A stretch of DNA of 64,000 nucleotides from Rhizobium brockwellii (GTDB taxonomy: Bacteria; Pseudomonadota; Alphaproteobacteria; Rhizobiales; Rhizobiaceae): assembly GCF_000769405.2 (NCBI RefSeq), contig NZ_CP053440.1, forward strand, positions 124,001 to 188,000. Direction: 5' to 3'. The stretch's first letter is position 1; each line of letters opens with the position of its first letter. Of this stretch, positions 3,772-21,246 are shown in pieces. Position numbers and translations under genes: made by a program. The notes under the pieces were generated by a model. The model had not been told where the DNA came from and did no database searches. It saw only the letters and a program-made list of their open reading frames with translations.

Positions 3772-3950
3772 GGTCGTTCCCGAAAGTAACCCCGACAGCG
3801 AAATGCCGCCTGACGGCTGGAAGTTCCATCAGGGTGCTCCTCCAGCCGTCAGCGGATAAAACGGCTGGGTATAGACGAGAAAAAAATGTCTCCGTCTCGT
3901 CGTATCGTTCTCTTGCTTCAAACGTTAATTGCTACCACCGGGATGCAAAC

Positions 3951-6834: not shown

Positions 6835-6861
6835 CGGCATTCTCCCTCACGTCATGGAAAG

Positions 6862-6909: not shown

Positions 6910-8430
6910 TTACTTGAAGCGGATCTGCGACAGCTGCAGTTCGGAATTCGTCGCGATCGTCGGCTTGAAGTCGAGACGCGGCGAGACGCGGGTGAAACCG
7001 ACCATGTGAAACATCGGGATGTCGGCGATGATTTCGGTGTTCACCTTGGCGAAAAGCTCCTTCCAGAGTTTCGTGCGCTCGTCGCCGGTGGCAGACGTTG
7101 CCTTGGCGATCAGCGCGTCGACGGCGGGATCGCGAACCATGGAGTGCGAGCCGTCGGTCGCGTATTTCACGAATGCGGTGAAGACGGGGTCGCCGGTCGC
7201 ATTATCGTGCTGCGACTGGGTCAGCGTCGGACCGGAGTCGGCGACAAAGGGTGCAACGAAGTAGCCGTTCCACACGGAAACGTCATACATGTCGAGCTTT
7301 ACGTTCAAGCCGACTTCCTGAAGCATTGCCATCATCGCTTCCATCGCTTCGGTGGCGTTGGGATATTGCCCGTTGCGACCGATGATGCGGATCTCTTGAT
7401 CGACGGGGACGCCGTCCGCTTTCGCTGCTGCGACAAGTTCCTTTGCTTTTTCGGGATCATAGGGCCAGGCGGGGATATCGGCATTGTAGCCGATCGTGGT
7501 CGGCACGACGAGCTGTGTCGCGATCTTCGCCTGTTCGGGGAACAACGTTCCGAGCATCGCCTGACGATCGATGGCAAGGTTCATCGCTTCACGGATGCGC
7601 CGGTCGTTAAGGGGTGCTGCGCGCGTATCGATGCGCAGCGATGTCGTCTCCGAATTCGGATAGGCGAAATCGGTTTCCTTGTTGGTGGCATCCTGTACGG
7701 ATACGGCCGGAACGATATCGGCTTCGCCGGCATCGACCATGGCGGCAGCAACGGCGCTGTCGGAGCGGAACAGATAGGTCGCCTGTTCCACCTGGGGTTT
7801 CTCCCCCCAATATTCCGGATTGCGCTTCAGCACGATCGACTGGCCGATTTCCCATTTGTCGAACGTATAAGGGCCGGTGCCAATCGGCTGGCGGGTGAAT
7901 TCGTCGGCTGGTGTCGCCTCGGCCGATTCCACAGCCATCACCGTCATCAGAAGCGGAAGAATCGGCTGCGCCGGTTTTGTCGTAATGCGGATCGTGTTGG
8001 CATCGGGCGTTTCGAAGCTGAATTCCGTGCCGCCGAAATATTTGCCGCCGGTCTCGCAGCTGAGCTTCTTGTTCTTGTTGCGCTCGATGGTGAATTGGAC
8101 ATCCTTGGCGGTGAACGGCTTGCCATCGTGCCATTTGACATTCGGGCGCAGCTTGAACTCCCAGGTGTCGTCATCGATCTTCGACCATTCTGTCGCCAGG
8201 CGGGGTTTGAGGCCGCCGTTGACGTAGTCGAATTCCACCAGCATCTCGTTGACGTTTTCAGAAATGACCCGGCCGACGTCCTGGCGCGCTGCCATACAGG
8301 GTTCGACGACATCGACGGTTTCGGCAAGCACAATAGTGACGTTGCTCTTGGCATCCTGAGCGTACGCCATACCGCCGCTCAGCGTGAGCACCGTTGTTGA
8401 AAAGCAGGCAGCCAACAAATGCAGTTTCAT
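6910..8430 (-). CDS. ABC transporter substrate-binding protein, family 5 (peptide/sugar-acid type)
   Basis: The 506-residue periplasmic protein begins MKLHLLAACFSTTVLTLSGGMAYAQ, a clear Sec signal peptide with likely cleavage after AYA. The mature part matches the DppA/OppA fold (SBP_bac_5), with WEFKLRPNVKWHDGKPFTAKDVQFT, PIGTGPYTFDKWEIGQSIVLKRNPEYWG and REAMNLAIDRQAML. The start at 8430 is preceded by GGGAGGAG; upstream in-frame codons do not look coding. Its matching permeases and ATPase are not adjacent. The nearest set is 8-12 kb away (16740-20211) and shares the same upstream 16-bp element, so the transporter appears to be split. The neighbouring enzymes suggest a sugar acid or its conjugate as cargo rather than a peptide. 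Confidence 0.92.
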   Translation of the reverse strand: MKLHLLAACFSTTVLTLSGGMAYAQDAKSNVTIVLAETVDVVEPCMAARQDVGRVISENVNEMLVEFDYVNGGLKPRLATEWSKIDDDTWEFKLRPNVKWHDGKPFTAKDVQFTIERNKNKKLSCETGGKYFGGTEFSFETPDANTIRITTKPAQPILPLLMTVMAVESAEATPADEFTRQPIGTGPYTFDKWEIGQSIVLKRNPEYWGEKPQVEQATYLFRSDSAVAAAMVDAGEADIVPAVSVQDATNKETDFAYPNSETTSLRIDTRAAPLNDRRIREAMNLAIDRQAMLGTLFPEQAKIATQLVVPTTIGYNADIPAWPYDPEKAKELVAAAKADGVPVDQEIRIIGRNGQYPNATEAMEAMMAMLQEVGLNVKLDMYDVSVWNGYFVAPFVADSGPTLTQSQHDNATGDPVFTAFVKYATDGSHSMVRDPAVDALIAKATSATGDERTKLWKELFAKVNTEIIADIPMFHMVGFTRVSPRLDFKPTIATNSELQLSQIRFK

Positions 8431-8535
8431 TTCGTTCTCCTCCCATGCGCCCTTGGCGCTCCTCACAGTAGATCTGCGTCCCGTTTCCGGTGCTCCGGCA
8501 TCCATCTCCTCAATAGCTAAGTAAAGCACAAGTGC

Positions 8536-8551
8536 ACTAATATACTAGTTG
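8536..8551. promoter_or_regulatory. Candidate GntR operator, copy A
   Basis: Read on the minus strand the site is CAACTAGTATATTAGT. It matches two other sites in the island (14951-14966 and 20323-20338) at 12 of 16 invariant positions, and contains the dyad ACTA-N6-TAGT. It lies about 105 bp upstream of the binding-protein start and overlaps a possible -10 element (TATATT on the minus strand). Confidence 0.65.
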
Positions 8552-8617
8552 GCGACAACCTTCAACTCTGGCGATCCCAAAGTGCGGCGCCGTCAACCTT
8601 GTCTGGCGCGCGAAATT

Positions 8618-9523
8618 TTACTTGGCCGAAGCAATCAGTTCGCGCATCATTTCGACTTCCTCGTCGGTCAGATCCGTCAGCGGCGCCCGCACCGGACCGG
8701 CATCAAAGCCGCGCAAACGCACGCCTGCCTTGACCGCGGATACCGCATAACCGGCCTTGCGATCGCGGATGCGGGCGAAGGGATAGTAGAAATCGCGCAG
8801 CATCTGCTCACAGGCCGCGTCGTCGCCGGCGAGGAATGCCTTGTGGAATTTCAGTGCCGTTTCAGGCACGAAATTGAAGATCGCCGAGGAATAGGTCGGC
8901 ATGCCGGCTCCGCGATAGGCCTGGGCAAACAGTTCGTGTGTCGGCATGCCGCCGATATAGGAAAGGCGGTCGCCGAGCGCGATCGTGACACGGCGCACCG
9001 TATCGATATCGCCGGTACCGTCCTTGAAGCCGATCAGATTTGGGCATTCGTCGGCAAGCTGAGCAAGCTGCTCGGCCGAAACCCGCGCCTGGCCACGATT
9101 ATAAACGATAACGCCCATACTGGTGGCCTTGCAGACAGCCCGTACACGCGCGGCGATTCCATCTGCCGGCGCCTCAGTCAGGTAATGCGGCAGCAGAAGA
9201 ACGCCGTCGCCACCGGCCGCCTCGATCTCGCGGGCCATGTCGCAGGCAATGCGCGTGCCGTAGCCGCATCCGGCAATAACAGGCGCATCGCCGGACACTG
9301 CGCGGGCGACCTTTACCACCTCAACCACCTCGCCCGGCGTCAGCGAGAATAGCTCACCGGTGCCGCCGGCAACGATCAGGCCGGCAACGGGGTACGATGA
9401 CAGCCATTCCAGATGCGCTGAAAACGGCCTGGCGGCAAACCGGTCCTCGGCATCGAAAGGGGTGACGGGAAAAGACAGCAGGCCGTTGCGAATGATCTCG
9501 CGAAGTACCGTCGGGGCAATCAA
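8618..9523 (-). CDS. kdgD: 5-dehydro-4-deoxyglucarate dehydratase (DHDPS/NAL superfamily)
   Basis: The 301-residue protein is a class I lyase of the DHDPS/NAL family. It shows GGTGELFSLTPGE at about 53-65, GCGYGT, the catalytic tyrosine 141 (VIVYNRGQ) and the Schiff-base lysine 167 (GFKDGTGD), the arrangement of KdgD. It dehydrates and decarboxylates 5-dehydro-4-deoxy-D-glucarate to 2-oxoglutarate semialdehyde. A related role on L-2-keto-3-deoxyarabonate cannot be excluded, given the nearby IlvD/Edd dehydratase. The start codon is TTG, 7 nt after GAGGAG. The gene follows the semialdehyde dehydrogenase by 17 bp on the same strand, so the two steps to 2-oxoglutarate are co-expressed. Confidence 0.9.
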   Translation of the reverse strand: MIAPTVLREIIRNGLLSFPVTPFDAEDRFAARPFSAHLEWLSSYPVAGLIVAGGTGELFSLTPGEVVEVVKVARAVSGDAPVIAGCGYGTRIACDMAREIEAAGGDGVLLLPHYLTEAPADGIAARVRAVCKATSMGVIVYNRGQARVSAEQLAQLADECPNLIGFKDGTGDIDTVRRVTIALGDRLSYIGGMPTHELFAQAYRGAGMPTYSSAIFNFVPETALKFHKAFLAGDDAACEQMLRDFYYPFARIRDRKAGYAVSAVKAGVRLRGFDAGPVRAPLTDLTDEEVEMMRELIASAK

Positions 9524-9540
9524 TTTGGCACTCCTCGGTT

Positions 9541-11058
9541 TCAGTTGCGCAGGTCTTGGGGCAACAGGCCGGCAGGGAAATTCTGGTAGGCGACGGGGCG
9601 CAGAAACCTGCGGATCGACATGGTCCCGACGCTGGTTGCGCCGAAGTTGGTCGAGGCCGGGTAGGGTCCGCCATGCACCATGGAATCGACAACCTCGACG
9701 CCGGTTGGGAAGCCATTGACCAGCAATCTACCAGCCTTCCTTTCGAGGATCGGCAGCAGGTCGCGGGCAAGGCCAAGATCGGCGTCGTCCATATGGATCG
9801 TCGCGGTCAGCTGTCCCTGGAAGCTTTCGGCAAGGGCGAGCATCTTTTCAGGCGAGTCGACGCGCACGACGAGGCCGAGAGGGCCGAACACCTCTTCGCT
9901 GAGGGAGTGATCGGCAAGCCAGGCCGAGCCGTTGGTCTCGAACAGGTTCGGCGCTGCGTCGCGGCCAGCACTCTTTGCAGCAAGAACCGGCGCGACGGCA
10001 TTGCTTGCCCGCATCCGGTCGGCACCGTCATGATAGGCCGTGGCGATGCCGTTGGTCAGCATCGTCTGCGGCGCCACCTTTTCAAGGGCCGCCTTGGCGG
10101 CACTGGTGAACTTGTCCGCCTCCGGCCCGTCGACGACGACGGCGATACCGGGTTTGGTGCAGAACTGGCCGGCACCAAGCGTCAGGGAACCGGCCCAGCC
10201 TGAACCGATCGCCTCTGCCCGGGCAGCGGTAGCGGCTGGCAGCAGGAACATCGGATTAACGCTGCCGAGTTCCCCGAAAAAGGGGATCGGCTCAGGGCGC
10301 TGGGCGCAAAGGTCAAAGAGCGCACGACCGCCGGCAAGCGAGCCGGTAAAGCCGACAGCTTTGATGGCCGGATGCGTCACCAGGGCCGTTCCGACATCAC
10401 GACGGCCGCCCTGGATCAGGCTGAAGACGCCGGCCGGCATTCCAGTGCGCTCGACAGCGGCTGCAATCGCCTCGGCAATGATCTCACCTGTGCCGGGATG
10501 GGCTGAATGTCCCTTCACCACGACCGGGCAGCCCGCCGCTAGCGCGGCCGCCGTATCGCCGCCGGCCGTCGAGAATGCCAGCGGAAAATTCGAAGCGCCG
10601 AAGACGGCGACCGGGCCGATCGGCCGCTGCACCAGACGGATCTCGGGCCGCGGCGCCGGTTGCCGATCGGGTTGGGCCGCATCGACGCGGGCGTCAAGAT
10701 GCGCGCCCTTGCGGATATGGTCGGCAAACAGTCTGAGTTGGCCGGTGGTGCGAGCGCGTTCGCCGTTGAGCCGGCCCTCCGGAAGCCCGGTTTCCTGCGT
10801 TCCAATGAGGGTGACGGCCTCGCCGCGCTTGTCGATCTCCTCGGCGATTGCCTCGAGGAAAATGGCGCGCTCCTCGCATGTCGTTGCCGAAAATGCTGCA
10901 AAAGCAGCTTCGGCAGCGCGGCAGGCGCGGTCGACCAGTTCCGTTGTGCCGACACCAAAGTCATGTGCCTGCCCATGCGCCGGCTCGGACTGAAATGTCG
11001 TCGTTCCGGCAATCCACTCGCCGGCGATGAAATGCCTGCCTGAAGGGGTCCAGCTCAT
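9541..11058 (-). CDS. 2-oxoglutarate semialdehyde dehydrogenase (ALDH superfamily)
   Basis: The 505-residue NAD(P)-dependent aldehyde dehydrogenase has catalytic cysteine 300 (GAGQFCTKPG), general-base glutamate 263 (FFGELGSVNP) and cofactor lysine 182 (VVVKGHSAHPGTGE). Those local sequences are characteristic of the KGSADH branch that oxidises 2-oxoglutarate semialdehyde to 2-oxoglutarate. The ATG at 11058 follows AGGAGAATAAC. It sits directly upstream of kdgD and completes the non-phosphorylating route from hexarates or pentonates into the TCA cycle. The composite repeat at 11127-11240 separates it from the RraA-like gene, so it may have its own transcript level. Confidence 0.92.
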   Translation of the reverse strand: MSWTPSGRHFIAGEWIAGTTTFQSEPAHGQAHDFGVGTTELVDRACRAAEAAFAAFSATTCEERAIFLEAIAEEIDKRGEAVTLIGTQETGLPEGRLNGERARTTGQLRLFADHIRKGAHLDARVDAAQPDRQPAPRPEIRLVQRPIGPVAVFGASNFPLAFSTAGGDTAAALAAGCPVVVKGHSAHPGTGEIIAEAIAAAVERTGMPAGVFSLIQGGRRDVGTALVTHPAIKAVGFTGSLAGGRALFDLCAQRPEPIPFFGELGSVNPMFLLPAATAARAEAIGSGWAGSLTLGAGQFCTKPGIAVVVDGPEADKFTSAAKAALEKVAPQTMLTNGIATAYHDGADRMRASNAVAPVLAAKSAGRDAAPNLFETNGSAWLADHSLSEEVFGPLGLVVRVDSPEKMLALAESFQGQLTATIHMDDADLGLARDLLPILERKAGRLLVNGFPTGVEVVDSMVHGGPYPASTNFGATSVGTMSIRRFLRPVAYQNFPAGLLPQDLRN

Positions 11059-11126
11059 TGTTATTCTCCTCGGCGGAGCCCCGCTCCGTCCTGATGCGTG
11101 AAGTGTTGTCCAAGGTGCGCCGCCTT

Positions 11127-11240
11127 GGAACAGGATGATTTTAGGCCAGGTCTGCCCAAAATCTGGATCCTGTTCTAAATTAAATAGTTAGAGCATGATG
11201 TCGTCCGAAAACCGCTCACACTTTTCGGCATCATGCTCTA
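11127..11240. repeat. Composite Rhizobiaceae-type palindromic repeat (two hairpins)
   Basis: Two adjacent inverted repeats are present. The first runs from GGAACAGGAT (from 11127) to ATCCTGTTC (ending about 11174), with internal GATTTTAGG / CCAAAATC complementarity. The second runs from TAGAGCATGATG (11189) to CATCATGCTCTA (11240), with CCGAAAA / TTTTCGG inside. I recognise this pair from memory as a highly repeated intergenic element of Rhizobium genomes. Its last three bases form the TAG stop codon of the upstream RraA-like gene. It could act as a transcript-end structure. Confidence 0.8.
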
Positions 11241-11948
11241 GCGGCCATTCACCTTCCGCCATTCGGCAAAGAGCGTCAGATTGCTTTCGTCGGTGGCCGG
11301 GTAGAGGCCGATGATCGTGTGACCTTGCTTGACACGTTCCGTGACGAAATCCTCGTAAGCGGTCATCTCTACCGCTTCATCGGCGATCTCGTCGGCAATC
11401 TCGGCAGGGATGACGATCACGCTGTCGTCGTCGCCAACCATGATGTCGCCCGGGAAGACCGCCACATCGCCACAGCCTATCGGCACATTGATGTCGATTG
11501 CCTCGTGCAGCGTCAGGTTGGTCGGACTGGAGGGACGATGGTGATAGGCGGGGATATCGAGGCCGCCGATGGTCATGGCGTCCCGGAAGCCGCCATCCGT
11601 GACGACGCCGCCACCGCCGCGCATCATCAGGCGAGTAATCAGGATGTCGCCGGCGGAGGCTGCTCGCGGATCCTTGCGGCTGTCCATCACCAGAACAGAG
11701 CCTTCCGGGCAAGTCTCGATGGCAAGCCGTTGCGGATGTTTCGGGTTTCGAAAGACGTTCATCGCATTGCGATCCTCACGCGCCGGCATGTAACGCAGCG
11801 TGAAGGCCGGTCCGACCATATTGCGGCCCTTCGGCTGCACCGGCCGAACATCCTGGATCGTCTGGTTTCTCAGGCCGCGCTTGAACAGCGCCGAACAAAG
11901 CGTCGCGACGGAGACACCCATCAGTTTTTCACGGGTTGCGGGGTTCAT
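11238..11948 (-). CDS. RraA-like family protein (possible class II aldolase/decarboxylase)
   Basis: The 236-residue protein has the RraA/HMG-aldolase fold signature. It shows GPAFTLRYMPAREDR, GSVLVMDSRKDPRAASAGDIL, the metal-site segment GGGVVTDGGFRDAMTI (DGxxRD, as in 4-carboxy-4-hydroxy-2-oxoadipate aldolase), and GDIMVGDDDSVIVIP. Databases often call such proteins ribonuclease activity regulators. In this sugar-acid operon a lyase or decarboxylase role is more plausible, but unproven. The start at 11948 is preceded by GAGAAGGAAAT. The stop codon TAG coincides with the end of the palindromic repeat, so the natural C-terminus may have been altered by the element. It lies 22 bp downstream of the enolase-superfamily gene. 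Confidence 0.85.
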   Translation of the reverse strand: MNPATREKLMGVSVATLCSALFKRGLRNQTIQDVRPVQPKGRNMVGPAFTLRYMPAREDRNAMNVFRNPKHPQRLAIETCPEGSVLVMDSRKDPRAASAGDILITRLMMRGGGGVVTDGGFRDAMTIGGLDIPAYHHRPSSPTNLTLHEAIDINVPIGCGDVAVFPGDIMVGDDDSVIVIPAEIADEIADEAVEMTAYEDFVTERVKQGHTIIGLYPATDESNLTLFAEWRKVNGR

Positions 11949-11970
11949 ATTTCCTTCTCCTCGTTCTCAT

Positions 11971-13161
11971 TCAGACGCCGAAGCTGCACGTTTCCACGGT
12001 CCAGTCGCGGGCTTTGCCTGTTAGGCTGCAACCGAGCCCCGTACGTGCTGGCACGATCATCCGGCCATCCTTGATCTCAAGTTGTTCGTTAAACAGTGGC
12101 GCCAGCCAATCGAAATGCTCTACCCACGGCTCATGCGCATAGGCGGCCGCCAGGTGCAGATGGATTTCCATGGCGAAATGCGGGGCCAGGCGCATGCGTT
12201 TCGCCTCGGCGTGCGTGCAGATGCGCAGAAAGGGCGTGATGCCGCCGACACGCGGCGCATCTGGCTGAATGAAGTCGACCGCATCGGCCCGGATCAGCGC
12301 CATGTGCTCGTCGGCGCTGGCCAGCATTTCGCCGGTGGCGATCGGTGTGGCAAGTTCCCGCGCCAGCGCCGCATGGCCTTCGGCGTCATAGGCATCGAGC
12401 GGCTCTTCGATCCATTCGAGATTGAGCGGTTCGACCAGCCGGCCGAAGCGCAACGCCGTCGTGCGGTCCCATTGCTGGTTTGCATCGACCATCAGCGGGA
12501 CACGGCCATCGATATGGCTGGTCACCGCATCAAGTCGGCGAAGGTCGATCATCGGATCTGGCTGTCCGACCTTGATCTTGATGCCGCCGATGCCGGAAGC
12601 GATCGAGTGGTCGATGGCATCGCGGATTTCCTCGACGGTCGATGACAGGAAGCCGCCGGAGGTGTTGTAGCAGGCGACACTGTCGCGATGGGCGCCAAGC
12701 AGTTTTGCGAGCGGCAGGCCGGCGCGTTTCGCCTTCAGGTCCCAGAGGCAGATGTCGATGGCGGCGATTGCCTGTGTTGCAATGCCGGAGCGGCCGACCG
12801 AGGCCCCAGCCCAGCAGAGCTTGTCCCAGATGCGTGCCGTATCGTTGGGGTCTTCGCCGATCAGGTTGTCGGCAAGCTCGCAGGCATGTGCATAAAGGGC
12901 AGGTCCGCCTGCCCTCTTCGAGTAACTGAAACCGAGACCGCTATGGCCGGCCTCGGAGACGATCTCGCAAAATAGAAAGGCCACCTGCGTCAGCGGCTTC
13001 TGCCGGCCCGTCAAAACCTTGGCATCGCTGATCGGCCGCGCCAAAGGCAGGTAAACGAGCGACAGGGTGACCGATCGGATGGCGTCCAGCTTGGACGGAC
13101 CGGCAGCGAAGCCAGCCTTGGGTGGCTGTGCGGGAATCGTACGTCGATCGGGAACAAACAT
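11971..13161 (-). CDS. Mandelate racemase-type enolase-superfamily sugar-acid dehydratase
   Basis: The 396-residue protein shows the complete active site of the mandelate racemase subgroup: KxK at lysines 195 and 197 (GIKIKVGQPD), metal ligands aspartate 226 (MVDANQQW), glutamate 252 (WIEEPL) and glutamate 278 (ATGEML), and the Asp301/His328 dyad (QPDAPRVGG, APHFAMEIHLHL). Members dehydrate acid sugars to 2-keto-3-deoxy acids. A galactarate, talarate or glucarate-like hexarate would give exactly the KdgD substrate made downstream in this operon. Specificity is inferred from context only. The ATG at 13161 is preceded by GAGGC. It sits 9 bp from the IlvD/Edd gene, so the two are tightly linked. 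Confidence 0.88.
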   Translation of the reverse strand: MFVPDRRTIPAQPPKAGFAAGPSKLDAIRSVTLSLVYLPLARPISDAKVLTGRQKPLTQVAFLFCEIVSEAGHSGLGFSYSKRAGGPALYAHACELADNLIGEDPNDTARIWDKLCWAGASVGRSGIATQAIAAIDICLWDLKAKRAGLPLAKLLGAHRDSVACYNTSGGFLSSTVEEIRDAIDHSIASGIGGIKIKVGQPDPMIDLRRLDAVTSHIDGRVPLMVDANQQWDRTTALRFGRLVEPLNLEWIEEPLDAYDAEGHAALARELATPIATGEMLASADEHMALIRADAVDFIQPDAPRVGGITPFLRICTHAEAKRMRLAPHFAMEIHLHLAAAYAHEPWVEHFDWLAPLFNEQLEIKDGRMIVPARTGLGCSLTGKARDWTVETCSFGV

Positions 13162-13170
13162 CGTAGTGCC

Positions 13171-14907
13171 TCAGTTGATAGCCGGTTCCGGCGTCTTGCC
13201 ACCGAATTCCGTCGTCAGGAAATCAAAGTCGCAGCCTTTGTCGGCCTGCTCGATATGGCCGGAGAACATAAAGCCGTAACCGCGCTCGTAATGCCGCGTC
13301 GGCGCCACCCAGGCGGCCCGCCGCGCTGTGATCTCTTCTTCGGAAACCAGCATATTGAGGCTGCGTGCCGGAATATCAAGCTCGACCATGTCCCCCGTTC
13401 TCAGCAGCGCCAAAGGCCCGCCAACATAAGATTCCGGTGCGACATGCAGCACGCAGGCACCGAAACTGGTTCCGGACATGCGGGCGTCCGAGATACGCAC
13501 CATGTCGCGCAGGCCGAGCTTCAACAGCGCCTTCGGCATCGGGATCATGCCCCATTCCGGCATGCCCGGTCCGCCCTGGGGGCCGGCATTGCGGAGTACC
13601 AGAACCGTGTCCGGCGTCAGCGGATAGTCGGGATCGTCGATGATCTTCTTCATCTCCGCATAGCTGTCGGCGACCAGCGCCGGGCCGCAATGGCGATGGA
13701 ATTTTGGGTCGCAGGCCGCCGGTTTGATAACCGCGCCGTCGGGACAGAGGTTCCCCTTGAGCACGGCCAGCGAGCCTTCGTGATAGACCGGGTTCGACAA
13801 TGGCCGGATAACGTCGTCATTGTAGATCTTCACCTGGTCGAGACCATCCACCAAGGGTTTTCCCATAACGGTGATCGCGGTGGGATCCAGCTTGTCGCCG
13901 AGCTGTTTCATCAGGGCGCGCAAGCCGCCGGCATAAAAGAAATCCTCCATCAGGTAGGTCGAACCGGAAGGCCGGATGTTGGCGAGAACCGGCGTCGTGC
14001 GACCGATGCGATCGAGATCATCGAGCTCCAGCGGGACGCCGGCGCGCCGCGCCATGGCGATCAGGTGAATGATGGCATTGGTGGAGCAACCGGTCGCCAT
14101 GGCGACCGTGACCGCGTTGTCGACGGCGGCCGGAGTGATGATCTGGTCCGGCGTCAGATCCTCCCACACCATATCGACGATGCGGCGGCCACAGGCCGCC
14201 GACATGCGCTGGTGGTTGGCGTCGGCTGCCGGGATCGAGGATGCGCCGGGCAGCGTCAATCCCATGGCCTCGGCGATCGCCGTCATCGTCGACGCCGTGC
14301 CCATGGTCATGCAATGGCCGTAGCTGCGGGCGATTCCGCCTTCGATGCCCTGCCACTCCTCCTGGGTGATCGTGCCGGCACGCCGCTCGTCCCAATATTT
14401 GAAGCCGTCGGTACCGGAGCCTAGCGTCTTGCCGGCATAGTTGCCGCGAAGCATCGGGCCGGCGGGCAGATAAATGAAGGGAATACCCATGCTGGTTGCG
14501 CCCATGACAAGGCCGGGTGTCGTCTTGTCGCAGCCACCCATCAGAACGGCGCCATCGACAGGATGGCTGCGCAGCAGTTCCTCAGTCTCCATCGCCAGCA
14601 TATTGCGATAGAGCATCGTGGTTGGCTTGACGAAGTTTTCGGAAAGGGAAAGAGCGGGCAGTTCCATGGGGAAACCGCCCGACTGAAGAATTCCGCGCTT
14701 CACCCATTCGGCGCGTTCCCGGAAATGCATGTGGCACGGCTGGGCATCGGACCAGGTGTTGATCACGGCAATGATCGGCTTTCCCTGCCAGTCCTCCGGC
14801 GCGTAACCCATCTGCATGGTTCGCGACCGGTGGCCGAACGAGCGCTGATCATCCGGTAGCATCCATCGGGCGGACCGCAATTGCTCGTAGGTTTTCCTCG
14901 CGGTCAC
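13171..14907 (-). CDS. IlvD/Edd-family dehydratase, L-arabinonate dehydratase-like
   Basis: The 578-residue protein has the three iron-sulfur cluster cysteines expected in the family: 58 (SDAQPCHMH), 126 (LMGGCDKTTP) and 199 (YGHCMTMGTAST). It also has RISDARMSGTSFGACVLHVAPES near the C-terminus. Spacing and local sequence are closer to sugar-acid dehydratases such as the Rhizobium L-arabinonate dehydratase than to IlvD. It removes water from an aldonate to give a 2-keto-3-deoxy acid. The start codon is GTG, preceded by GGGAGAG. It is first in a minus-strand operon running to kdgD. A candidate -35 (TTGATA) and -10 (TATCAG) with a 17-bp spacer lie upstream and overlap operator copy C. Confidence 0.9.
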   Translation of the reverse strand: MTARKTYEQLRSARWMLPDDQRSFGHRSRTMQMGYAPEDWQGKPIIAVINTWSDAQPCHMHFRERAEWVKRGILQSGGFPMELPALSLSENFVKPTTMLYRNMLAMETEELLRSHPVDGAVLMGGCDKTTPGLVMGATSMGIPFIYLPAGPMLRGNYAGKTLGSGTDGFKYWDERRAGTITQEEWQGIEGGIARSYGHCMTMGTASTMTAIAEAMGLTLPGASSIPAADANHQRMSAACGRRIVDMVWEDLTPDQIITPAAVDNAVTVAMATGCSTNAIIHLIAMARRAGVPLELDDLDRIGRTTPVLANIRPSGSTYLMEDFFYAGGLRALMKQLGDKLDPTAITVMGKPLVDGLDQVKIYNDDVIRPLSNPVYHEGSLAVLKGNLCPDGAVIKPAACDPKFHRHCGPALVADSYAEMKKIIDDPDYPLTPDTVLVLRNAGPQGGPGMPEWGMIPMPKALLKLGLRDMVRISDARMSGTSFGACVLHVAPESYVGGPLALLRTGDMVELDIPARSLNMLVSEEEITARRAAWVAPTRHYERGYGFMFSGHIEQADKGCDFDFLTTEFGGKTPEPAIN

Positions 14908-14950
14908 GGCTCTCTCCCACCTTTTCGCTTGCTTATTTCAGCGTTTGCAC

Positions 14951-14982
14951 CAACTGATATTTTAGTTTGACATATATATCAA
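14951..14982 (-). promoter_or_regulatory. Promoter of the dehydratase operon with GntR operator copy C
   Basis: On the minus strand, TTGATA (14977-14982) and TATCAG (14954-14959) are separated by 17 bp. The -10 lies inside CAACTGATATTTTAGT (14951-14966), one of the three matching 16-bp sites. The site is in the divergent region between the dehydratase operon and the GntR gene that starts at 15051, so one bound regulator could control both directions. Confidence 0.65.
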
Positions 14983-15050
14983 TGGAAAGTTTGCGTTCTT
15001 GTGCATTAGGTCGTGCAAAGCTATGAATGGAGTCGAAAAGGACGCCTCAC

Positions 15051-15770
15051 ATGAATTCCCAGTTCGCCTCCACATTCGGCCTGACCGCACCCGGTTTTCC
15101 GGTCGTTGCCGGCAGCACGGTCCAGCGGGTCTATGATGATCTGCGAAAGCGCATCATCACCATTCAGCTGCCGCCGGACACCACGCTGTCGCGCACCGAA
15201 CTCACCGAGACTTATGAAGTCAGCCAGACTCCGATCCGAGATGCATTGCAGCTTCTCAAACAGGAGGGGCTGGTTCGCATTTACCCGCAGTCCCGCACTG
15301 TGGTGACCAGGATCGACGTCCTGCAGATTTACGAGGCACATTTCCTTCGCGTGGCGCTGGAAACGGAAGTTTGCCGCCGCCTCGCAACCGATCCGGATCC
15401 GGATCCGAGCGTCATTACCCGCGCCCGGTCGATCATCAAGATGCAGACGGCAGTCGCCGACGATGCCGATCAGATCGCGATCTTCCAGGAACTCGACGAG
15501 CTCTTTCACCAGACATTGTTCGCAGGCGCCAAGCGCAGCAGCCTCCACCAGTTGATACGCGAGCGCTCCGGCCATCTCGAGCGTATTCGTCGTCTGCATC
15601 TGCCCGAGAAGGGCAAGATCGTCAGCATTCTCGATGGGCACCACGCTATCATCGATGCGATTGCCGCTCGCGACGAACAGGGTGCGGTCGACGCGATCCG
15701 TGAACATCTCAGCCGCACCGTTGCAAAAGTGGAAGACCTCAGGAAGGAGTTCCCCGACTACTTCGTCTGA
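15051..15770 (+). CDS. GntR-family transcriptional regulator (FCD domain), likely regulator of the island
   Basis: The 239-residue protein has an N-terminal GntR winged helix (about 20-85: VQRVYDDLRKRI, TTLSRTELTETYEVSQTPIRDAL) and an FCD effector domain (about 95-225: LRVALETEVCRRL, ELDELFHQTLF, DGHHAIIDAI). I chose the ATG at 15051 because AAGGACG precedes it at good spacing; an in-frame ATG at 15027 has no ribosome site. It is transcribed divergently from the IlvD/Edd operon and sits in the middle of an island whose three minus-strand units share one operator-like sequence. The inducer is probably a pathway acid such as a 2-keto-3-deoxy acid (inference). Confidence 0.92.
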   Translation: MNSQFASTFGLTAPGFPVVAGSTVQRVYDDLRKRIITIQLPPDTTLSRTELTETYEVSQTPIRDALQLLKQEGLVRIYPQSRTVVTRIDVLQIYEAHFLRVALETEVCRRLATDPDPDPSVITRARSIIKMQTAVADDADQIAIFQELDELFHQTLFAGAKRSSLHQLIRERSGHLERIRRLHLPEKGKIVSILDGHHAIIDAIAARDEQGAVDAIREHLSRTVAKVEDLRKEFPDYFV

Positions 15771-15795
15771 TCTGGCGCCGCGGGTTTTGTCGAAG

Positions 15796-16743
15796 TCAAT
15801 TGACCGGCGTCAGCAACGGCCTGCCTGCGAAGAAGGCGGCAAGGTTGTCGACCGTCAATTGCGCCATCCTGTCACGGGTTTCCTCGGTACCGCTGGCGTG
15901 ATGGGGATAGAGCACGACATTGTCGAGCGCTGCGAAGCGCGGATCGGGATTGGGTTCGTTGAGGTAGACATCGATGCCGGCCGAGGCGATCCGCCTTTCC
16001 TGCAAGGCCTTGATCAAGGCCGGCTCGTCGACCACGGTGCCCCGGGCAATGTTGATGAAGCTGCCCGTCGGTCCGAGCGCATTGAGCACGTCCGCCGAAA
16101 TTAACCCTTCGGTCGAGGGCCCGCCAGGGGTCGCGACGATCAGGATATCGGCCCAGTCCGCAAGTTTGACCGGCGTGTCGAAATAGGCAAAATCGTTGCC
16201 GGCTTTCTTCGTCCTTCCATAATAGCCGACCGCCAGCCCGACAGCTTCGCATCGCTTGGCAATCGCCATCCCTATGCGGCCGAGGCCGACGATCCCGGCC
16301 TTCTTGCCAGACGTCGATGTCGTCAGCGGCATCATGCCCTTCTCTCCCCAATCGCCGGAGCGCACATAGCGATCGCCTTCCGGCAGGCGCCGGCGTGCCG
16401 CCAGCATCAGAAGCAGTGCCATATCGGCAACGTCGTCGCACAGCACCTCGGATGTGTTGGTGAGCTTGATGCCGCGCCGTGTCATCGCCTCGACGTCCAT
16501 CTGGTCGTAGCCGGCCGAGGAGCAGGCGGCGAGCTTTAATGCCGGCAATTTCGAAAGCAGGGCTTCGTCGATTGTCACATGGCCGTTGCAGACCAGCGCG
16601 GAAGCGATCGGGCCGGCTTCCCGCAAGAGAGCATCCCGCTCTTCGCCTTTGACGAGATCCAGCCGGTGCAGCGTGTAGGTCTCCTCCAGCATCGCCATCT
16701 GATGGGGCCGGAGCGGATAGGCGACGATGACATCGGGTTTCAT
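15796..16743 (-). CDS. D-isomer-specific 2-hydroxyacid dehydrogenase
   Basis: The 315-residue NAD(P)-dependent enzyme belongs to the glyoxylate/hydroxypyruvate reductase branch. It has the Rossmann motif GIVGLGRIGMAIAKR (about 150-165) and the catalytic triad: arginine in NIARGTVVDEPAL, glutamate in VYLNEPNPDP and histidine in LYPHHASGT. It likely reduces a 2-oxo acid arising from the imported compound. Its ATG overlaps the ATPase stop codon by 4 bp, so it is translationally coupled as the last gene of the permease-permease-ATPase operon. It ends convergently with the GntR gene. Confidence 0.92.
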   Translation of the reverse strand: MKPDVIVAYPLRPHQMAMLEETYTLHRLDLVKGEERDALLREAGPIASALVCNGHVTIDEALLSKLPALKLAACSSAGYDQMDVEAMTRRGIKLTNTSEVLCDDVADMALLLMLAARRRLPEGDRYVRSGDWGEKGMMPLTTSTSGKKAGIVGLGRIGMAIAKRCEAVGLAVGYYGRTKKAGNDFAYFDTPVKLADWADILIVATPGGPSTEGLISADVLNALGPTGSFINIARGTVVDEPALIKALQERRIASAGIDVYLNEPNPDPRFAALDNVVLYPHHASGTEETRDRMAQLTVDNLAAFFAGRPLLTPVN

Positions 16744-18374
16744 GCGGAAACGAGTCCTTCCTGTCGTTGGCGGGCGGCGCGTCGGGTGGCCTGGATCTCC
16801 GGATCGGGATCGAGGCTCGCGGCAAGAAGCGCCTGCGTGTAGGGGTGGGAGGGCGCGGTGAAGATCTGTTCCACCGGCCCCTCCTCGACAATCTCGCCGG
16901 CCTTCATGACGATGACACGATCGGCGAAATCGCGAACCACCGGCAGGTCGTGCGCAATGAAGAGGTAGGACAGGCCGAATTCGCGACGCAGGCCCTCAAG
17001 CAGGGCAATCACCTGTGCCTGGATCGACACGTCGAGCGCCGAAACCGCCTCGTCGCAGATGATCAGTTTCGGCTCCATCGCGAGCGCACGGGCAATCGCG
17101 ATGCGCTGGCGCTGGCCGCCGGAAAACTGATGTGGATACCGGTCGGCCATATCCGGTTTCAGGCCGACCTTGACCAGCAACTCGGCCACTCTCTCCTTCC
17201 ATCTTGCCTTCGGTAGGATATCCGGGTGAATGACCCAGGCCTCGGAAATCAACCGGAACACGCTCATCCGCGGGTTGAGGGACTGCGTCGGGTCCTGAAA
17301 AACCATCTGCAAATCGCGACGCAGCCCGAATATTTCTCTCGGGGTCATCGCAAGCAGATCGTTGCCGCGATAGAGAACCTGGCCCTCCTGAGGATCGTCG
17401 AGCCGAACGATCGCCCGGGCAAGGGTCGACTTGCCGGAACCGCTCTCGCCGACAACGGCAACCGTCTCGCCGGGCATGATGACGAAGTCCACGCCCTTCA
17501 GGGCCTGGAATGCGCCAAAACTCTTTTTCAAGCCGATTGCGCGCAGCAGCGGTTCGCCCTGCCGGTCACGCTCTTGAGCCATCGCACCTTTCCCGGGTGC
17601 GGCGGCAATCAACTTCTTCGTATAGGCGTTCTGCGGGTTGCGATAGACTTCGGCCGCATTGCCGGTTTCGACGACGCAGCCGGAATTCATCACCACGACC
17701 CGGTCGGCGATCTCGGCAACGACGCCCAAATCATGGGTGATCAGCAACAGGCCCATGCCGGATTCCTGCTGCAACTCCTGCAGAAGTTCGAGCACCTGCG
17801 CCTGCACCGTCACGTCGAGCGCGGTGGTGGGTTCATCCGCGATCAGGATATCGGGCTTGCAGGCGATCGCCATGGCGATCATCAGGCGTTGCCGCTGGCC
17901 GCCGGAGAACTGGAACGGATATTTTCGCATCGCCGCCTGCGGATCGCTTATGCCGACGCGCCCGATCAATTCGAGCGCCCTCGCACCTGCGCGCTCCGCC
18001 GACTGGCCATGCGTCGTCATCATCTCGGTGATTTGCCAGCCGACCGGATAGACCGGATTGAGGTGGGCGAGCGGGTCCTGAAAGATCATGGCGATCTTGG
18101 CGCCGTTGATCGAACGTCGCTCCTCGGGCGTCATTTTCAGCATGTCGCGACCGTTGAGGAGAATTGTGCCGCTGGTGATTTTGCCGGGTGGCATGTCGAT
18201 CAGGTTCATGATCGCCGAGGCCGAGACGGACTTGCCGGAACCGCTTTCCCCAAGGATCGCCAGCGTCTCGCCGCGATCGAGATGCCAGCTGACATCCTGC
18301 ACCGCCTTGACGGTCCCGCCGACGGTGTGGAACTCGACCGAGAGGTCACGCACTTCCAAAATATGTTCAGCCAT
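16740..18374 (-). CDS. Dipeptide-type ABC transporter ATPase, DppD-DppF fusion
   Basis: The 544-residue protein contains two complete nucleotide-binding domains. The first (about 1-260) has GESGSGKS, FSGGQRQR and ILIADEPTTALD. The second (about 275-530) has GESGSGKS, FSGGQRQR and LIICDEAVSALD. The oligopeptide C-terminal extensions after each domain (YTKKLIAAAPG and YTQALLAASLD) are present. Such fused ATPases power class-5 importers. It overlaps the upstream permease by 8 bp and the downstream dehydrogenase by 4 bp. No binding protein lies in this operon, so the one encoded at 6910-8430 is the likely partner. Confidence 0.95.
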   Translation of the reverse strand: MAEHILEVRDLSVEFHTVGGTVKAVQDVSWHLDRGETLAILGESGSGKSVSASAIMNLIDMPPGKITSGTILLNGRDMLKMTPEERRSINGAKIAMIFQDPLAHLNPVYPVGWQITEMMTTHGQSAERAGARALELIGRVGISDPQAAMRKYPFQFSGGQRQRLMIAMAIACKPDILIADEPTTALDVTVQAQVLELLQELQQESGMGLLLITHDLGVVAEIADRVVVMNSGCVVETGNAAEVYRNPQNAYTKKLIAAAPGKGAMAQERDRQGEPLLRAIGLKKSFGAFQALKGVDFVIMPGETVAVVGESGSGKSTLARAIVRLDDPQEGQVLYRGNDLLAMTPREIFGLRRDLQMVFQDPTQSLNPRMSVFRLISEAWVIHPDILPKARWKERVAELLVKVGLKPDMADRYPHQFSGGQRQRIAIARALAMEPKLIICDEAVSALDVSIQAQVIALLEGLRREFGLSYLFIAHDLPVVRDFADRVIVMKAGEIVEEGPVEQIFTAPSHPYTQALLAASLDPDPEIQATRRAARQRQEGLVSA

Positions 18375-19293
18375 TTTTCCTGCCCCTCATTTCAAGGCGC
18401 CAGCGTTGCGTCGGATCGAGTGCGATCCGCAGCCAATTCGACAGTAGGTTCAGCGACAGCGTCGTCAGAATGATTGCAAGGCCGGGCCAGAAGGAAAGCC
18501 ACCAGGCATTGGTGAGATAGGGTCGTCCTTGAGCAACCATGAGACCCCAGGTGATCTCCGGCGCCTGAATGCCGATCCCGAGGAATGACAGGGAGGATTC
18601 CGCCAGCATGACGAAGGCGAAATCCAGCGTCGCGATGGTCACCAGCGTGGGGAAGATCACTGGCAGGATGTGATGGAAGACAATGCGTCGATACGATGCT
18701 CCCATGACCTTCGCCGCGTGCACGAACATCCGCTCGCGCACTTCCAGCACTTCGGCGCGCGTGGTGCGCAGATAGATGGGAATGCGGGTGATCGCCAAGA
18801 CGAGGATGATATTGGTGACCGAGGGCTCGAGCATGTAGAGCACGATCACCGCCAGAAGCAGCGACGGAAAGGACATGATGACGTCGCCGAGGCGCATGAT
18901 CCATTGAGCAGCAGAAGAGCGGCTGTAACCCGCGACCAGACCGAGCGCTGTACCGACAACGGATGATGCGAGCACGGCTGCCGCGGCAACCAGGATGGTG
19001 TTTTGCGCCGCCACGATAACGCGGGCAAGAAGCGGCCTGCCCAGCGCATCGGCGCCGAGGACATAAAGCAATCCGCGGGTGATATCGAAGGGCGGCGCGT
19101 TGCGGCCCCGCAGGTTCTGCTTAGTGGCGATGGCCTCCAGCAGGAACGGGCCAAACAGTGCACAAAGCAGAACGATCAAGAGGAACAGAGCCGCGAAAAA
19201 AGCGAGCTTGTCCGCCCACAGCATCGTCAGCCAGCGCCCGGTCGGACCGCTTGGTTTTTTCTCGGCGAGGATTTGTGTGTCGGCCATCGTCAT
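18367..19293 (-). CDS. Dipeptide-type ABC permease, DppC-like
   Basis: The 308-residue inner-membrane protein has an N-terminal helix (about 28-52), then the BPD_transp_1 domain with about five more helices. The EAA loop reads VHAAKVMGASYRRIVFHHILP (about 185-205). The segment ADALGRPLLARVI is the DppC/OppC hallmark before the core domain. The ATG at 19293 lies 3 bp after the stop of the DppB-like gene; a second start two codons in (MADTQ) is possible. It forms a heterodimeric channel with the DppB-like protein. Confidence 0.93.
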   Translation of the reverse strand: MTMADTQILAEKKPSGPTGRWLTMLWADKLAFFAALFLLIVLLCALFGPFLLEAIATKQNLRGRNAPPFDITRGLLYVLGADALGRPLLARVIVAAQNTILVAAAAVLASSVVGTALGLVAGYSRSSAAQWIMRLGDVIMSFPSLLLAVIVLYMLEPSVTNIILVLAITRIPIYLRTTRAEVLEVRERMFVHAAKVMGASYRRIVFHHILPVIFPTLVTIATLDFAFVMLAESSLSFLGIGIQAPEITWGLMVAQGRPYLTNAWWLSFWPGLAIILTTLSLNLLSNWLRIALDPTQRWRLEMRGRKNG

Positions 19294-19296
19294 CGC

Positions 19297-20211
19297 TCAA
19301 TACCGGATGCGCGGATCGAGCAGCGCATAGGCGATGTCGATCAACAGGTTCATGATGAAGATCGCCAGTGCCGAGACCATGATGACGGCCAGCACGACGG
19401 CGAAATCGCGAAGCAGGATGGAATCGATCATCAGCTTGCCGATTCCAGGAAAGCCAAACACCGTCTCGACGACGACGGCACCGTTCAAGATGGCGGCCGC
19501 CTGGTCGCCGATGACTGTGATCACCGGCAGCATGGCGTTGCGCAGTCCGTGAATGAAGATGATCGAGTTCGAGCGGACCCCTTTGGCGCGGGCAGTCTTC
19601 ACATAGGCGGAAGACAGAACGCTGATCATCGAGCCGCGGACCACCTGCAGGATCAGGCCGAAAGGCCGGATGAACAGCACGCTGACCGGCAGGACCCAGT
19701 GCCAGAAAGTTCCCGTTCCCGATGTCGGCAGGACATGCAGTTTAACGGCGAAAATGACGATCGCGACGATGGCCAGCCAGAAATCCGGCGCCGCAGCGCC
19801 GATCAGCGAGAAGAAAGTGGCAAGACGGTCGAAGACGCCGCCGACGCGAAAGGCTGCCAGAGAACCGATGATGATCGCGGCGACCGTGACCAGCGCCATG
19901 GTGATGGCAGCCAGCCAGAAGGTCCAGACGAAGGCCTCCAGCACGACATTCATGGCCGGACGGGCCTGTCGCAGTGACTGACCGAAATTGCCCTGGGCAA
20001 GATCCGAGACATAACGGCCGAACTGGATGATCAACGGATCGTTGAAACCGTTCATCTCTCGGAATTGCTGGCGCATTTCGGTGGTCGCATCGATCGGCAG
20101 ATAGAGGTCGGTCGGATCGCCCGTCAGCCGGGAGAGGAAGAACACGATGACGATAAGCACCACGAGCGATACGCCACTGGCGATCGCACGTTTGCCGATG
20201 AAACTCTTCAT
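19297..20211 (-). CDS. Dipeptide-type ABC permease, DppB-like
   Basis: The 304-residue protein starts MKSFIGKRAIASGVSLVVLIVIVFFLSRLTGDPTDLY, the usual first helix of DppB/OppB/GsiC permeases. It contains an EAA loop (YVKTARAKGVRSNSIIFIHGLRNAMLP) and the C-terminal segment INLLID-like region ending ALLDPRIRY. The ATG at 20211 is preceded by GGGAGGAG; the longer reading frame upstream lacks membrane-protein character. It is the first gene of the permease-permease-ATPase-dehydrogenase operon, with operator copy B about 110 bp upstream. Confidence 0.93.
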   Translation of the reverse strand: MKSFIGKRAIASGVSLVVLIVIVFFLSRLTGDPTDLYLPIDATTEMRQQFREMNGFNDPLIIQFGRYVSDLAQGNFGQSLRQARPAMNVVLEAFVWTFWLAAITMALVTVAAIIIGSLAAFRVGGVFDRLATFFSLIGAAAPDFWLAIVAIVIFAVKLHVLPTSGTGTFWHWVLPVSVLFIRPFGLILQVVRGSMISVLSSAYVKTARAKGVRSNSIIFIHGLRNAMLPVITVIGDQAAAILNGAVVVETVFGFPGIGKLMIDSILLRDFAVVLAVIMVSALAIFIMNLLIDIAYALLDPRIRY

Positions 20212-20322
20212 GCCACTCCTCCCGAGTGAAACCCATAGGGGTCGTGATCTCTCGTCTTCGTCGGTGCCGAAGCCGCCTGTTATACCCCTCGGCAATAGGC
20301 ACGGCTCCACAATCAGTCACTA

Positions 20323-20358
20323 CAACTGAAATATTAGTGCATCTAGAATTTTTGTGAA
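20323..20358 (-). promoter_or_regulatory. Promoter of the permease operon with GntR operator copy B
   Basis: The plus-strand sequence CAACTGAAATATTAGT (20323-20338) matches copies A and C. On the minus strand a possible -10 TAATAT (20331-20336) lies inside it, with TTCACA (20353-20358) 16 bp upstream as -35. Binding would block the promoter of the DppB-like gene. Confidence 0.6.
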
Positions 20359-20370
20359 CCCCAAAAATGA

Positions 20371-21246
20371 TCAGGGCTTATCAACCGGCGGCTTGCGTCG
20401 CCATGTCATGCCGCGGGTTCCGATGATGGCGGCGCCGATGATCACCGCCGCGCCGATCCACGTCTGTGCGGCCGGAACTTCCGCGAAAAATGAGAAGGCC
20501 ATGAGGGCCACGACGGGCAGTCGGAGAAAGTCGAGCGGTGCCAGAACGCTTGCGGTCGCCATGCCGAAGGCACGCGTGATCAGCGTCATGTTGAGTGCGC
20601 CGAGTGCTCCTTGGAGGGCAAGCAGTGCGAGTTGGCTCCAGCTCGGCATCGACCAGACCGGCAGCATGACGATCAGGCCAAGCGGTACCGTCGCTATCAG
20701 ATTCCATGCAACCAGCCGGTCGGCACTATCTCTCAATGCCATCCGCCGCAGCATCAATTGGCTGGCCGCCGTCAAAACCGCTCCTGCCAGCGCAAAAAGC
20801 AGCCATTGGTCGAAACCGGACGCTCCAGGGCGAATGATGATCATGACGCCGACAAAACCTGCGACAATGCCGCCCACGCTGGAGATGCCGACATGTTCCT
20901 TGAGCACCAGCCACGCACCGAGAACGAGAAACATCGGCATGGTGAAATTGATTGCCGTGGCATCGGCGAGTGGCGCGTGCGCAAAGGCGACGAACAATGC
21001 GACCAGTGAGGCAAGCTTCAGACCCGCGCGCACGACATGCAGAACACGATAGGGAGAGGCTTTCAGGTCGACCCGTGACACGATCCAGGGCGTGACGACA
21101 AGAAGTCCGAAAAACGCCCGGAAGAAGCCGATCATCAATGGATGCACCTCGCCGGCCAGCAAGCGTACGATGACTGCGTCGAGACTATTTAAAAAAGCGG
21201 CGGCCACCATCATGCATACGGCAAGGCCTGTTCGACCAGGCTGCAT
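20371..21246 (-). CDS. DMT-superfamily (EamA) permease
   Basis: The 291-residue protein has about ten hydrophobic helices in two repeated EamA domains (about 10-140 and 150-285). Typical features are FLNSLDAVIVRLLAGEVHPLMIGFFRAFFGLL near the start and LGALNMTLITRAFGMATASVLAPLDFLRLPVVAL in the second half. It probably exports or imports a small metabolite; the substrate cannot be deduced. The ATG at 21246 has AGGAG 8 nt upstream. It stands alone on the minus strand, with its stop about 30 bp from the permease-operon promoter, so read-through could reach that operon. Confidence 0.9.
   Translation of the reverse strand: MQPGRTGLAVCMMVAAAFLNSLDAVIVRLLAGEVHPLMIGFFRAFFGLLVVTPWIVSRVDLKASPYRVLHVVRAGLKLASLVALFVAFAHAPLADATAINFTMPMFLVLGAWLVLKEHVGISSVGGIVAGFVGVMIIIRPGASGFDQWLLFALAGAVLTAASQLMLRRMALRDSADRLVAWNLIATVPLGLIVMLPVWSMPSWSQLALLALQGALGALNMTLITRAFGMATASVLAPLDFLRLPVVALMAFSFFAEVPAAQTWIGAAVIIGAAIIGTRGMTWRRKPPVDKP

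Follow-up and report, generated by a model that had tools for sequence, protein, structure and literature searches.

A 14-bp palindrome at three units of a predicted sugar-acid island in Rhizobium brockwellii and its candidate GntR/FCD regulator

The Rhizobium brockwellii DNA analysed here, called the window throughout, is 64,000 bases long (C2:124001-188000, contig NZ_CP053440.1, within a genome of 7,118,658 bases) and carries a predicted island for the uptake and breakdown of sugar acids. Contig C2 starts with open reading frames (ORFs) at coordinates matching repB and repC of pRL12. Among collected plasmids, a 501-base query is closest to R. leguminosarum, at 99.8% in NZ_CP050098.1. Within the island a 16-bp pattern, CAACTRRWATWTTAGT, has exact matches at 8536-8551 (minus strand), 14951-14966 (plus) and 20323-20338 (plus), with 12 of the 16 positions invariant, as the initial annotation of this DNA had described. 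The putative operator unit is a 14-bp palindrome of ideal form ACTAATATATTAGT; the CA that begins the 16-mer is only weakly conserved among relatives. All three copies lie upstream of separate minus-strand units. Copy A (ACTAGTATATTAGT on the minus strand, ACTAATATACTAGT on the plus; 8536-8549) stands some 106 bp before the likely start of a binding-protein gene, copy B (ACTGATATTTTAGT, 14953-14966, plus) stands before a dehydratase operon, inside the divergent spacer between araD and a GntR gene (14908-15026), and copy C (ACTGAAATATTAGT, 20325-20338, plus) lies some 114 bp ahead of position 20211, where dppB, the first gene of a Dpp-type permease operon, probably starts. The order is thus Ldh_2 dehydrogenase, binding protein, copy A, dehydratase operon, copy B, GntR gene (plus), permease operon and copy C.

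The dehydratase operon is headed by araD, an IlvD/Edd dehydratase gene (13171-14907, minus) whose product is above the cut-off of the L-arabinonate dehydratase model PRK13016. The same strand carries an enolase-superfamily L-talarate/galactarate dehydratase (11971-13161), also above the cut-off of its model, an RraA-like protein (11238-11948, above cut-off for PRK08245) that would act as an aldolase, an aldehyde dehydrogenase (9541-11058) and a DHDPS-family 5-dehydro-4-deoxyglucarate dehydratase of the KdgD type (8618-9523). By profile, then, both sugar-acid dehydratase models and PRK03620, matched by the KdgD-type protein, are above cut-off; the KdgD equivalog model gives that protein 364.9 against a cut-off of 373.95. 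The aldehyde dehydrogenase is above cut-off only for Pfam Aldedh and below it for all 25 NCBIfam models displayed out of 42; its neighbours suggest that it is perhaps an alpha-ketoglutarate semialdehyde dehydrogenase. Behind copy C, again on the minus strand, come the DppB-type permease (19297-20211), a DppC-type permease (18367-19293), an ATPase of the Dpp type that joins two ATP-binding halves (DppD-DppF, 16740-18374) and, as final gene, a D-2-hydroxyacid dehydrogenase (15796-16743). The SBP_bac_5 binding protein behind copy A (6910-8430, minus) is taken to start at the ATG at 8430, following the length annotated in Rlv3841, and the Ldh_2 dehydrogenase gene lies at 5779-6840 (minus).

The predicted reader of copies A, B and C is the GntR/FCD regulator encoded at 15027-15770 on the plus strand. 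It had been placed as diverging from copy C, and this has to be corrected: the divergent partner of GntR is the dehydratase gene, with copy B between the two, and copy C lies 4.5 kb beyond the 3' end of the GntR gene, towards which the permease operon reads. The protein combines a GntR winged helix-turn-helix (wHTH) domain (PF00392, 55.7 bits, cut-off 27) with an FCD domain (PF07729, 75.3 bits, cut-off 24.3). Residues D157, H161, H205 and H227 are invariant in 16 aligned homologues and in four compared FCD proteins and, in a by-eye comparison with the residues given in PMC7797058, correspond to the Asp/Asn plus three His ligands of a predicted metal site.

A search of the whole genome, set beforehand as a check, found the exact 16-bp pattern solely at A, B and C, and not at random sites. 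Scanning the window with up to three mismatches to the 16-mer gave eight matches (shuffled mean 0.66, largest 3), which, because the site is palindromic, collapse to five places: A, B, C, 20340-20355 (two mismatches) and 60443-60458 (three). The ideal 14-mer with up to two mismatches also occurs at five places genome-wide, A (one mismatch), B and C (two each), C2:3721 and C4:255702. We rejected the 16-mer with up to three mismatches as a genome-wide regulon marker, since it gave 86 rows where the reversed control gave 162, which is noise. Ten weaker places (C2:712451, C5:248173, C1:59696, C1:4369847, C1:1966662, C1:2018376, C1:2716735, C1:2800410, C1:3538061 and C5:21950) were viewed as ORF surroundings only.

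The two further matches to the 14-mer were considered as extra members of the regulon and rejected, each being the conserved operator of a neighbouring FCD regulator. At C4:255702-255715 (6703-6716 of locus L010) ACTGATATACTAGT precedes an FCD regulator gene and then uxuA, and at C2:3721-3734 (3721-3734 of L009) ACTAACATGTTAGT stands next to repC, before an operon of DHDPS, FCD regulator (C2:4664-5341) and sugar ABC genes. The clade of the second regulator keeps ACTAACATGTTAGT in 17 of 24 regions, with the same ACTAA/TTAGT arms as the island operator. Identity with the island GntR is 34% for the uxuA-linked protein and 20% for the DHDPS-linked one. As both near-matches belong to paralogues, the genome-wide test strengthens the finding. 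One or more copies, above all A, might be read by the uxuA-linked paralogue, either by itself or jointly with the island regulator. The C4 operator differs from copy A at a single base, and the commonest palindrome of the uxuA-linked clade is ATATACTAGTATAT (13 of 24 regions), where copy A contains ATATACTAGT. Against this, copy A agrees with the ideal of the island regulator at 13 of 14 positions, and the binding-protein gene next to this GntR in loci L087 and L090 carries TCTAATATATTAGT or TCTGATATATTAGT, which fit the island regulator. We consider reading by the paralogue quite unlikely.

That the island GntR reads the palindrome is argued by its conservation upstream of the regulator's homologues. 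In the Rhizobiaceae we sought homologues in 297 genomes, 48 of which matched at E<=1e-40. A match of at least 13/16 to AACTAATATATTAGTT lay within 400 bp upstream in 18 of the 30 fetched loci, the window's own included, and one of at least 11/16 in 24, with neither threshold reached in six; this count had no control alongside. A wider set of 80 named loci was controlled: a site of at least 12/14 lay in the 300 bp upstream of the homologue in 56, against a mean of 0.13 and a maximum of 4 for 60 permuted palindromes, and the rest of the same loci held 38 such positions in 1,334,613, several of them further target sites. When all 16,384 possible 14-bp palindromes were ranked by their occurrence upstream of GntR homologues, ACTAATATATTAGT came first, in 43 of 64 non-redundant regions; the median palindrome occurred in none and the next, overlapping variants in at most 28 of the 64.

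The dehydratase gene provides the complementary comparison. Its homologues were fetched regardless of any regulator (98 of the 297 genomes at E<=1e-200), and the 30 best loci were scanned. A site of at least 11/14 was found in all seven loci with an adjacent GntR homologue and in none of the 23 without one, where the best was 10/14. These 23 include G120, whose dehydratase is 92% identical; nine of their genomes have this GntR elsewhere and 14 have no match at E<=1e-40. As the genomes are related we claim no probability, and the comparison strongly supports the view that the operator would go with the GntR gene and not with the dehydratase. The same results make it scarcely credible that the repeats are merely conserved AT-rich -10 elements with no operator function. 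Such a reading could draw on the TAATAT/TATATT held in the core and on the TTG box at a fixed distance from it. A -10 element needs neither the ACT...AGT arms nor the symmetry and near-exact repetition; permuted palindromes of the same composition are nearly absent at 12/14 or better, and the site is lacking in all 23 dehydratase loci that have no adjacent regulator.

The copies do stand where promoters might be. A promoter scan of 8300-20600 gave six promoter-like sites (shuffled mean 2.6, standard deviation 1.9) and bore out the proposal that B and C overlap plausible -10 elements: at copy C it found TTCACA-16-TAATAT (20331-20358, minus) with its -10 inside the operator, and at copy B it paired TTTCCA (14988) with a TAAAAT inside the operator. 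Copy A was not flagged in that scan, and its -35/-10-like pair was seen by eye only. By eye, -35-like hexamers begin 16 nt before copy A (TTGAAG, 8560-8565, minus) and, on the araD strand, 16 nt before copy B (TTGATA, 14977-14982, minus). Among relatives the best offset for a TTGACA-like box on the dehydratase strand is likewise 16 nt before the palindrome (mean 2.66 of 6 over 50 non-redundant sites of 58; median offset 1.5), with at least four bases matched in 22 of the 50. On the GntR strand a box at -7 fits best (mean 2.54); it forms part of a longer palindrome, TGATA...TATCA, so that some of the signal may come from protein contact and not from a promoter. Reading the operator flanks as -35 and -10 elements is suggestive only.

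Two further sequences adjoin the operators. An imperfect palindrome, TTGACATATATATCAA (14967-14982), lies beside copy B and begins with a perfect -35 hexamer pointing to GntR, and could serve as an additional half-site or as the promoter of GntR. The degenerate copy CATCTAGAATTTTTGT at 20340-20355 adjoins copy C with two mismatches to the 16-mer, and its stretch is conserved in relatives (L081 and L082 share 35-36 identical bp). This copy could be a weak additional site or no more than the -35 region.

Overlap with promoter-like -10 regions makes repression the likeliest mode of action. The same GntR might instead activate through the same operator, or act in both ways. The position of the operator is deduced from promoter-like hexamers alone, for the GntR gene itself it would sit at or upstream of the -35, and the TTG box at -16 could be an extra protein half-site, of the kind reported near GntR-family sites in PMC4494728. 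Yet on the dehydratase strand the palindrome stands where a -10 would be expected, which favours occlusion, and the FCD repressor Atu1419 has palindromes overlapping -10 boxes, according to PMC7797058. Activation or dual action thus seems unlikely, and we retain repression as the preferred reading.

How the regulator might recognise this sequence is suggested by a comparison of contact residues. In PMC7797058, helix 3 of Atu1419 contacts DNA through Ser44, Arg45, Thr46 and Arg49, and Arg45, common to Atu1419 and E. coli FadR, reads a G whose change abolishes binding. PMC4494728 gives TKGT/ACMA as the FadR subfamily consensus, with Arg at the contact position preferring G/C, and states that Asn and Gln prefer A in general. 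The island GntR carries S66-Q67-T68-x-x-R71, with the spacing of the Atu1419 contact residues, which would put Q67 at the position of Arg45. In 30 homologues from the 297-genome search this residue is Gln in 27 and Ser in three; in the 80 named loci it is Gln in 73, Leu in two and not aligned in five, although the peptide patterns used to find the latter set included one with VSQ, which favours Gln-bearing proteins as the 297-genome search does not. Its equivalent is Arg in 28 of 30 uxuA-clade proteins (two not aligned) and Leu or Ile in all 30 of the DHDPS clade.

The operator shows a matching change. Among 47 sites of the island regulator, chosen for likeness to the ideal in a way that inflates these counts, 45 carry A and two carry G at position 4, and all 47 carry T at its mirror; taking position 4 as the GT/AC place rests on centring the site like ATGTATACAT. 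The island operator and regulator thus do not show the GT/AC core of TKGT/ACMA read by a conserved Arg45. Since BioR is a known exception, the missing core marks a variant rather than an exclusion from the FadR/FCD family. Copy A has G at position 4 in one half, and the three Ser-bearing regulators (L039, L044 and L047) have ATGTAT-centred sites. The apparent pairing of Arg-to-Gln in the protein with G-to-A in the operator is suggestive. We see an even chance that it reflects a wider pattern, in which an FCD clade of Alphaproteobacteria and a few Beta- and Gammaproteobacteria dropped the GT/AC contact, the Arg45 equivalent becoming Gln, the G becoming A and the centre becoming ATATAT inside ACT...AGT arms. 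Three paralogues in one Rhizobium cell, with Gln, Arg and Leu/Ile, would then use related 14-bp operators with different centres, so that a few residue changes would divide a single operator space among them or leave it shared in part, and copy A would be a candidate site of cross-talk.

The targets of the operator were followed in the relatives. The 80 loci hold 100 sites of at least 12/14; counting gene starts from -120 to +350 bp of a site, so that one site can count twice, 55 are near the start of GntR, 24 of AraD, 11 of DppB and eight of the SBP_bac_5 binding protein, with three each for EamA, RraA and aldehyde dehydrogenase, two for MLE, 13 near none and three inside an over-long GntR ORF. 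The AraD sites are mostly common to the GntR divergon. Distant relatives with the operator before binding-protein or dppB genes are L083 (Paracoccus), L087 and L090, the others being mostly Rhizobiaceae. Together with the conservation upstream of the regulator and the contrast between dehydratase loci with and without it, these sites uphold the earlier suggestion that the central GntR is the shared regulator.

Fifteen Rhizobiaceae loci, 13 of them distinct (L051 = L073, L053 = L080), were used to follow the individual copies. Among the 13 the core is identical for A in six (L051/L073, L072 and L075-L078, with one change in L052), for B in nine and for C in eight; L081 and L082 have copy C as well, and the position of copy A in L079 lies off the contig. 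Conservation seems weaker for the A branch than for the other two. An extra site, ACAAATATATTAGT, occurs near the EamA start in three Rhizobium relatives (L076 at 16415, L077 at 16338 and L078 at 16352); the scan of the window with the 16-mer shows no match at that place.

The commonest partners of the regulator in the 80 loci are RraA (55 loci, at least 50% identity) and AraD (54, at least 60%), with both in 52, followed by aldehyde dehydrogenase in 24, KdgD and MLE in 16 each, DppB in 15 and the SBP_bac_5 protein in 14, all lower bounds from loci of varying length. Because RraA and AraD are the commonest, a peptide is a less likely inducer than a sugar acid or a keto-acid intermediate common to these routes. 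In L119 (Mesorhizobium tianshanense), L122 (Novispirillum) and L128 (Thalassospira) genes judged from their protein beginnings to encode TRAP transporters lie between GntR and AraD. An enolase-superfamily protein lies nearby in L100 (Marinomonas) and L105 (Vannielia), its best NCBIfam match being glucarate dehydratase (261.6 and 245.9 bits against a cut-off of 828.7).

Taken together, we think it very probable that A, B and C serve as operators of a single regulon, read by the island GntR acting as a repressor that is released by a carboxylate of the pathway. Comparison supports the operator and the regulator that goes with it, its three target units and the overlap with promoter-like elements; from there we infer how the protein would oligomerise on DNA, that it represses rather than activates, that it controls itself, where the pathway ends and what induces it. 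The FCD GntR would bind a palindrome of the ACTAATATATTAGT type, presumably as one dimer each, and occupy the -10 regions of the binding-protein, araD and dppB promoters, repressing them when substrate is absent. A sugar-acid carboxylate, probably the inducer, would bind in the metal/ligand pocket of the FCD domain and release the protein, and uptake through the binding protein and DppBCDF would be switched on together with an oxidative route towards alpha-ketoglutarate. As copy B lies between araD and the GntR gene, GntR probably also regulates itself. Repression and a pathway acid as inducer, both proposed in the initial annotation, thus seem plausible.

Several observations weigh against this picture. 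No site of at least 12/14 was found in 24 of the 80 upstream regions, nor anywhere in the fetched DNA of 13 of the 80 loci. Ten of the 11 DppB sites and six of the eight binding-protein sites come from close relatives, L074 (R. laguerreae FB206) and L080-L082 showed no copy A, and L080 showed no copy C either. The island ideal reaches at least 12/14 in eight of 24 uxuA-clade regions, and with a paralogue using a related operator, sole control of copy A by the island GntR is not certain. As the -7 signal is part of the extended palindrome, the protein might likewise contact the -16 box, which would then not be a -35. A candidate TTGACA for the GntR promoter abuts copy B with, by eye, no good -10 after it.

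Some other features of the surroundings deserve mention. A CitMHS/SLC13-type permease with TrkA_C domains (3834-5717) lies at the island edge with no operator copy, and another FCD regulator, 25% identical to the island GntR, lies at 237-971 beside ligD and was weighed as a possible reader of the copies. In R. johnstonii 3841 (L051, NC_008378.1, 243851-244958) the kdgD position has no listed coding sequence in the PLSDB table, which is incomplete, and the matching ORF (L073) has 699 bases against 906 in the window, so that kdgD may be broken in that strain. The island may also connect to rhizosphere data. PMC3333776 names TRAP genes pRL120499-500; if the RefSeq tags of pRL12 are numbered with repA as tag 1, the offset at these genes is +7. 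Assuming that it grows steadily, tag 243 falls among RL_RS34125-34160, where the sole Dpp/PepT genes are the island's DppDF, DppC and DppB. In that case pRL120243 might be one of these Dpp genes and would link the island to those data.

Regulator, operator and target set can now be named for this predicted uptake and breakdown island. With the regulon known, the inducer, and hence the transported compound, becomes directly testable, and the pairing of Arg-to-Gln with G-to-A offers a clean test case for a change of operator specificity after duplication in the GntR family. Among the open-licence papers listed we found none on the operator or the island regulator; an entry in RegPrecise or in the supplements of PMC4494728 or PMC3333776 is possible.

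An FCD GntR regulating a carboxylate pathway is of a kind already known; what varies is the operator centre and the recognition residue. As PMC4494728 describes the FadR (FCD) subfamily, its members share with the island a wHTH and FCD domain, an A/T-rich palindrome, carboxylic-acid metabolism and a single site in the spacer between regulator and divergent operon. Their consensus is TKGT/ACMA, whereas the island has an ATATAT centre with no GT/AC pair and Gln for the usual Arg. BioR of alphaproteobacteria, another FadR-subfamily member treated there, also departs from GT/AC with its operator TTATMKATAA; it differs from the island in operator sequence and in pathway (biotin). The same-genome paralogues linked to uxuA and DHDPS likewise have 14-bp AT-rich palindromes at their own operons, but with other palindromes and with Arg or Leu/Ile for Gln67.

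The closest solved structure by sequence is the GntR-family protein PDB 7u5q (E 7.4e-38, residues 29-246), which has Arg (VSRTP) where the island GntR has Gln. A further sequence relative (E 2.5e-11), with PDB 6Z74 and four other structures, is Atu1419 of Agrobacterium fabrum. According to PMC7797058, its palindromes lie over -10 boxes and it represses its own gene too, much as the island shows -10-like overlap, and its metal site of Asn and three His is comparable with D/H/H/H. Its operator is ATGTATACAT, with Arg45 contacting the essential G where the island has Gln and A, and it is a tetramer.

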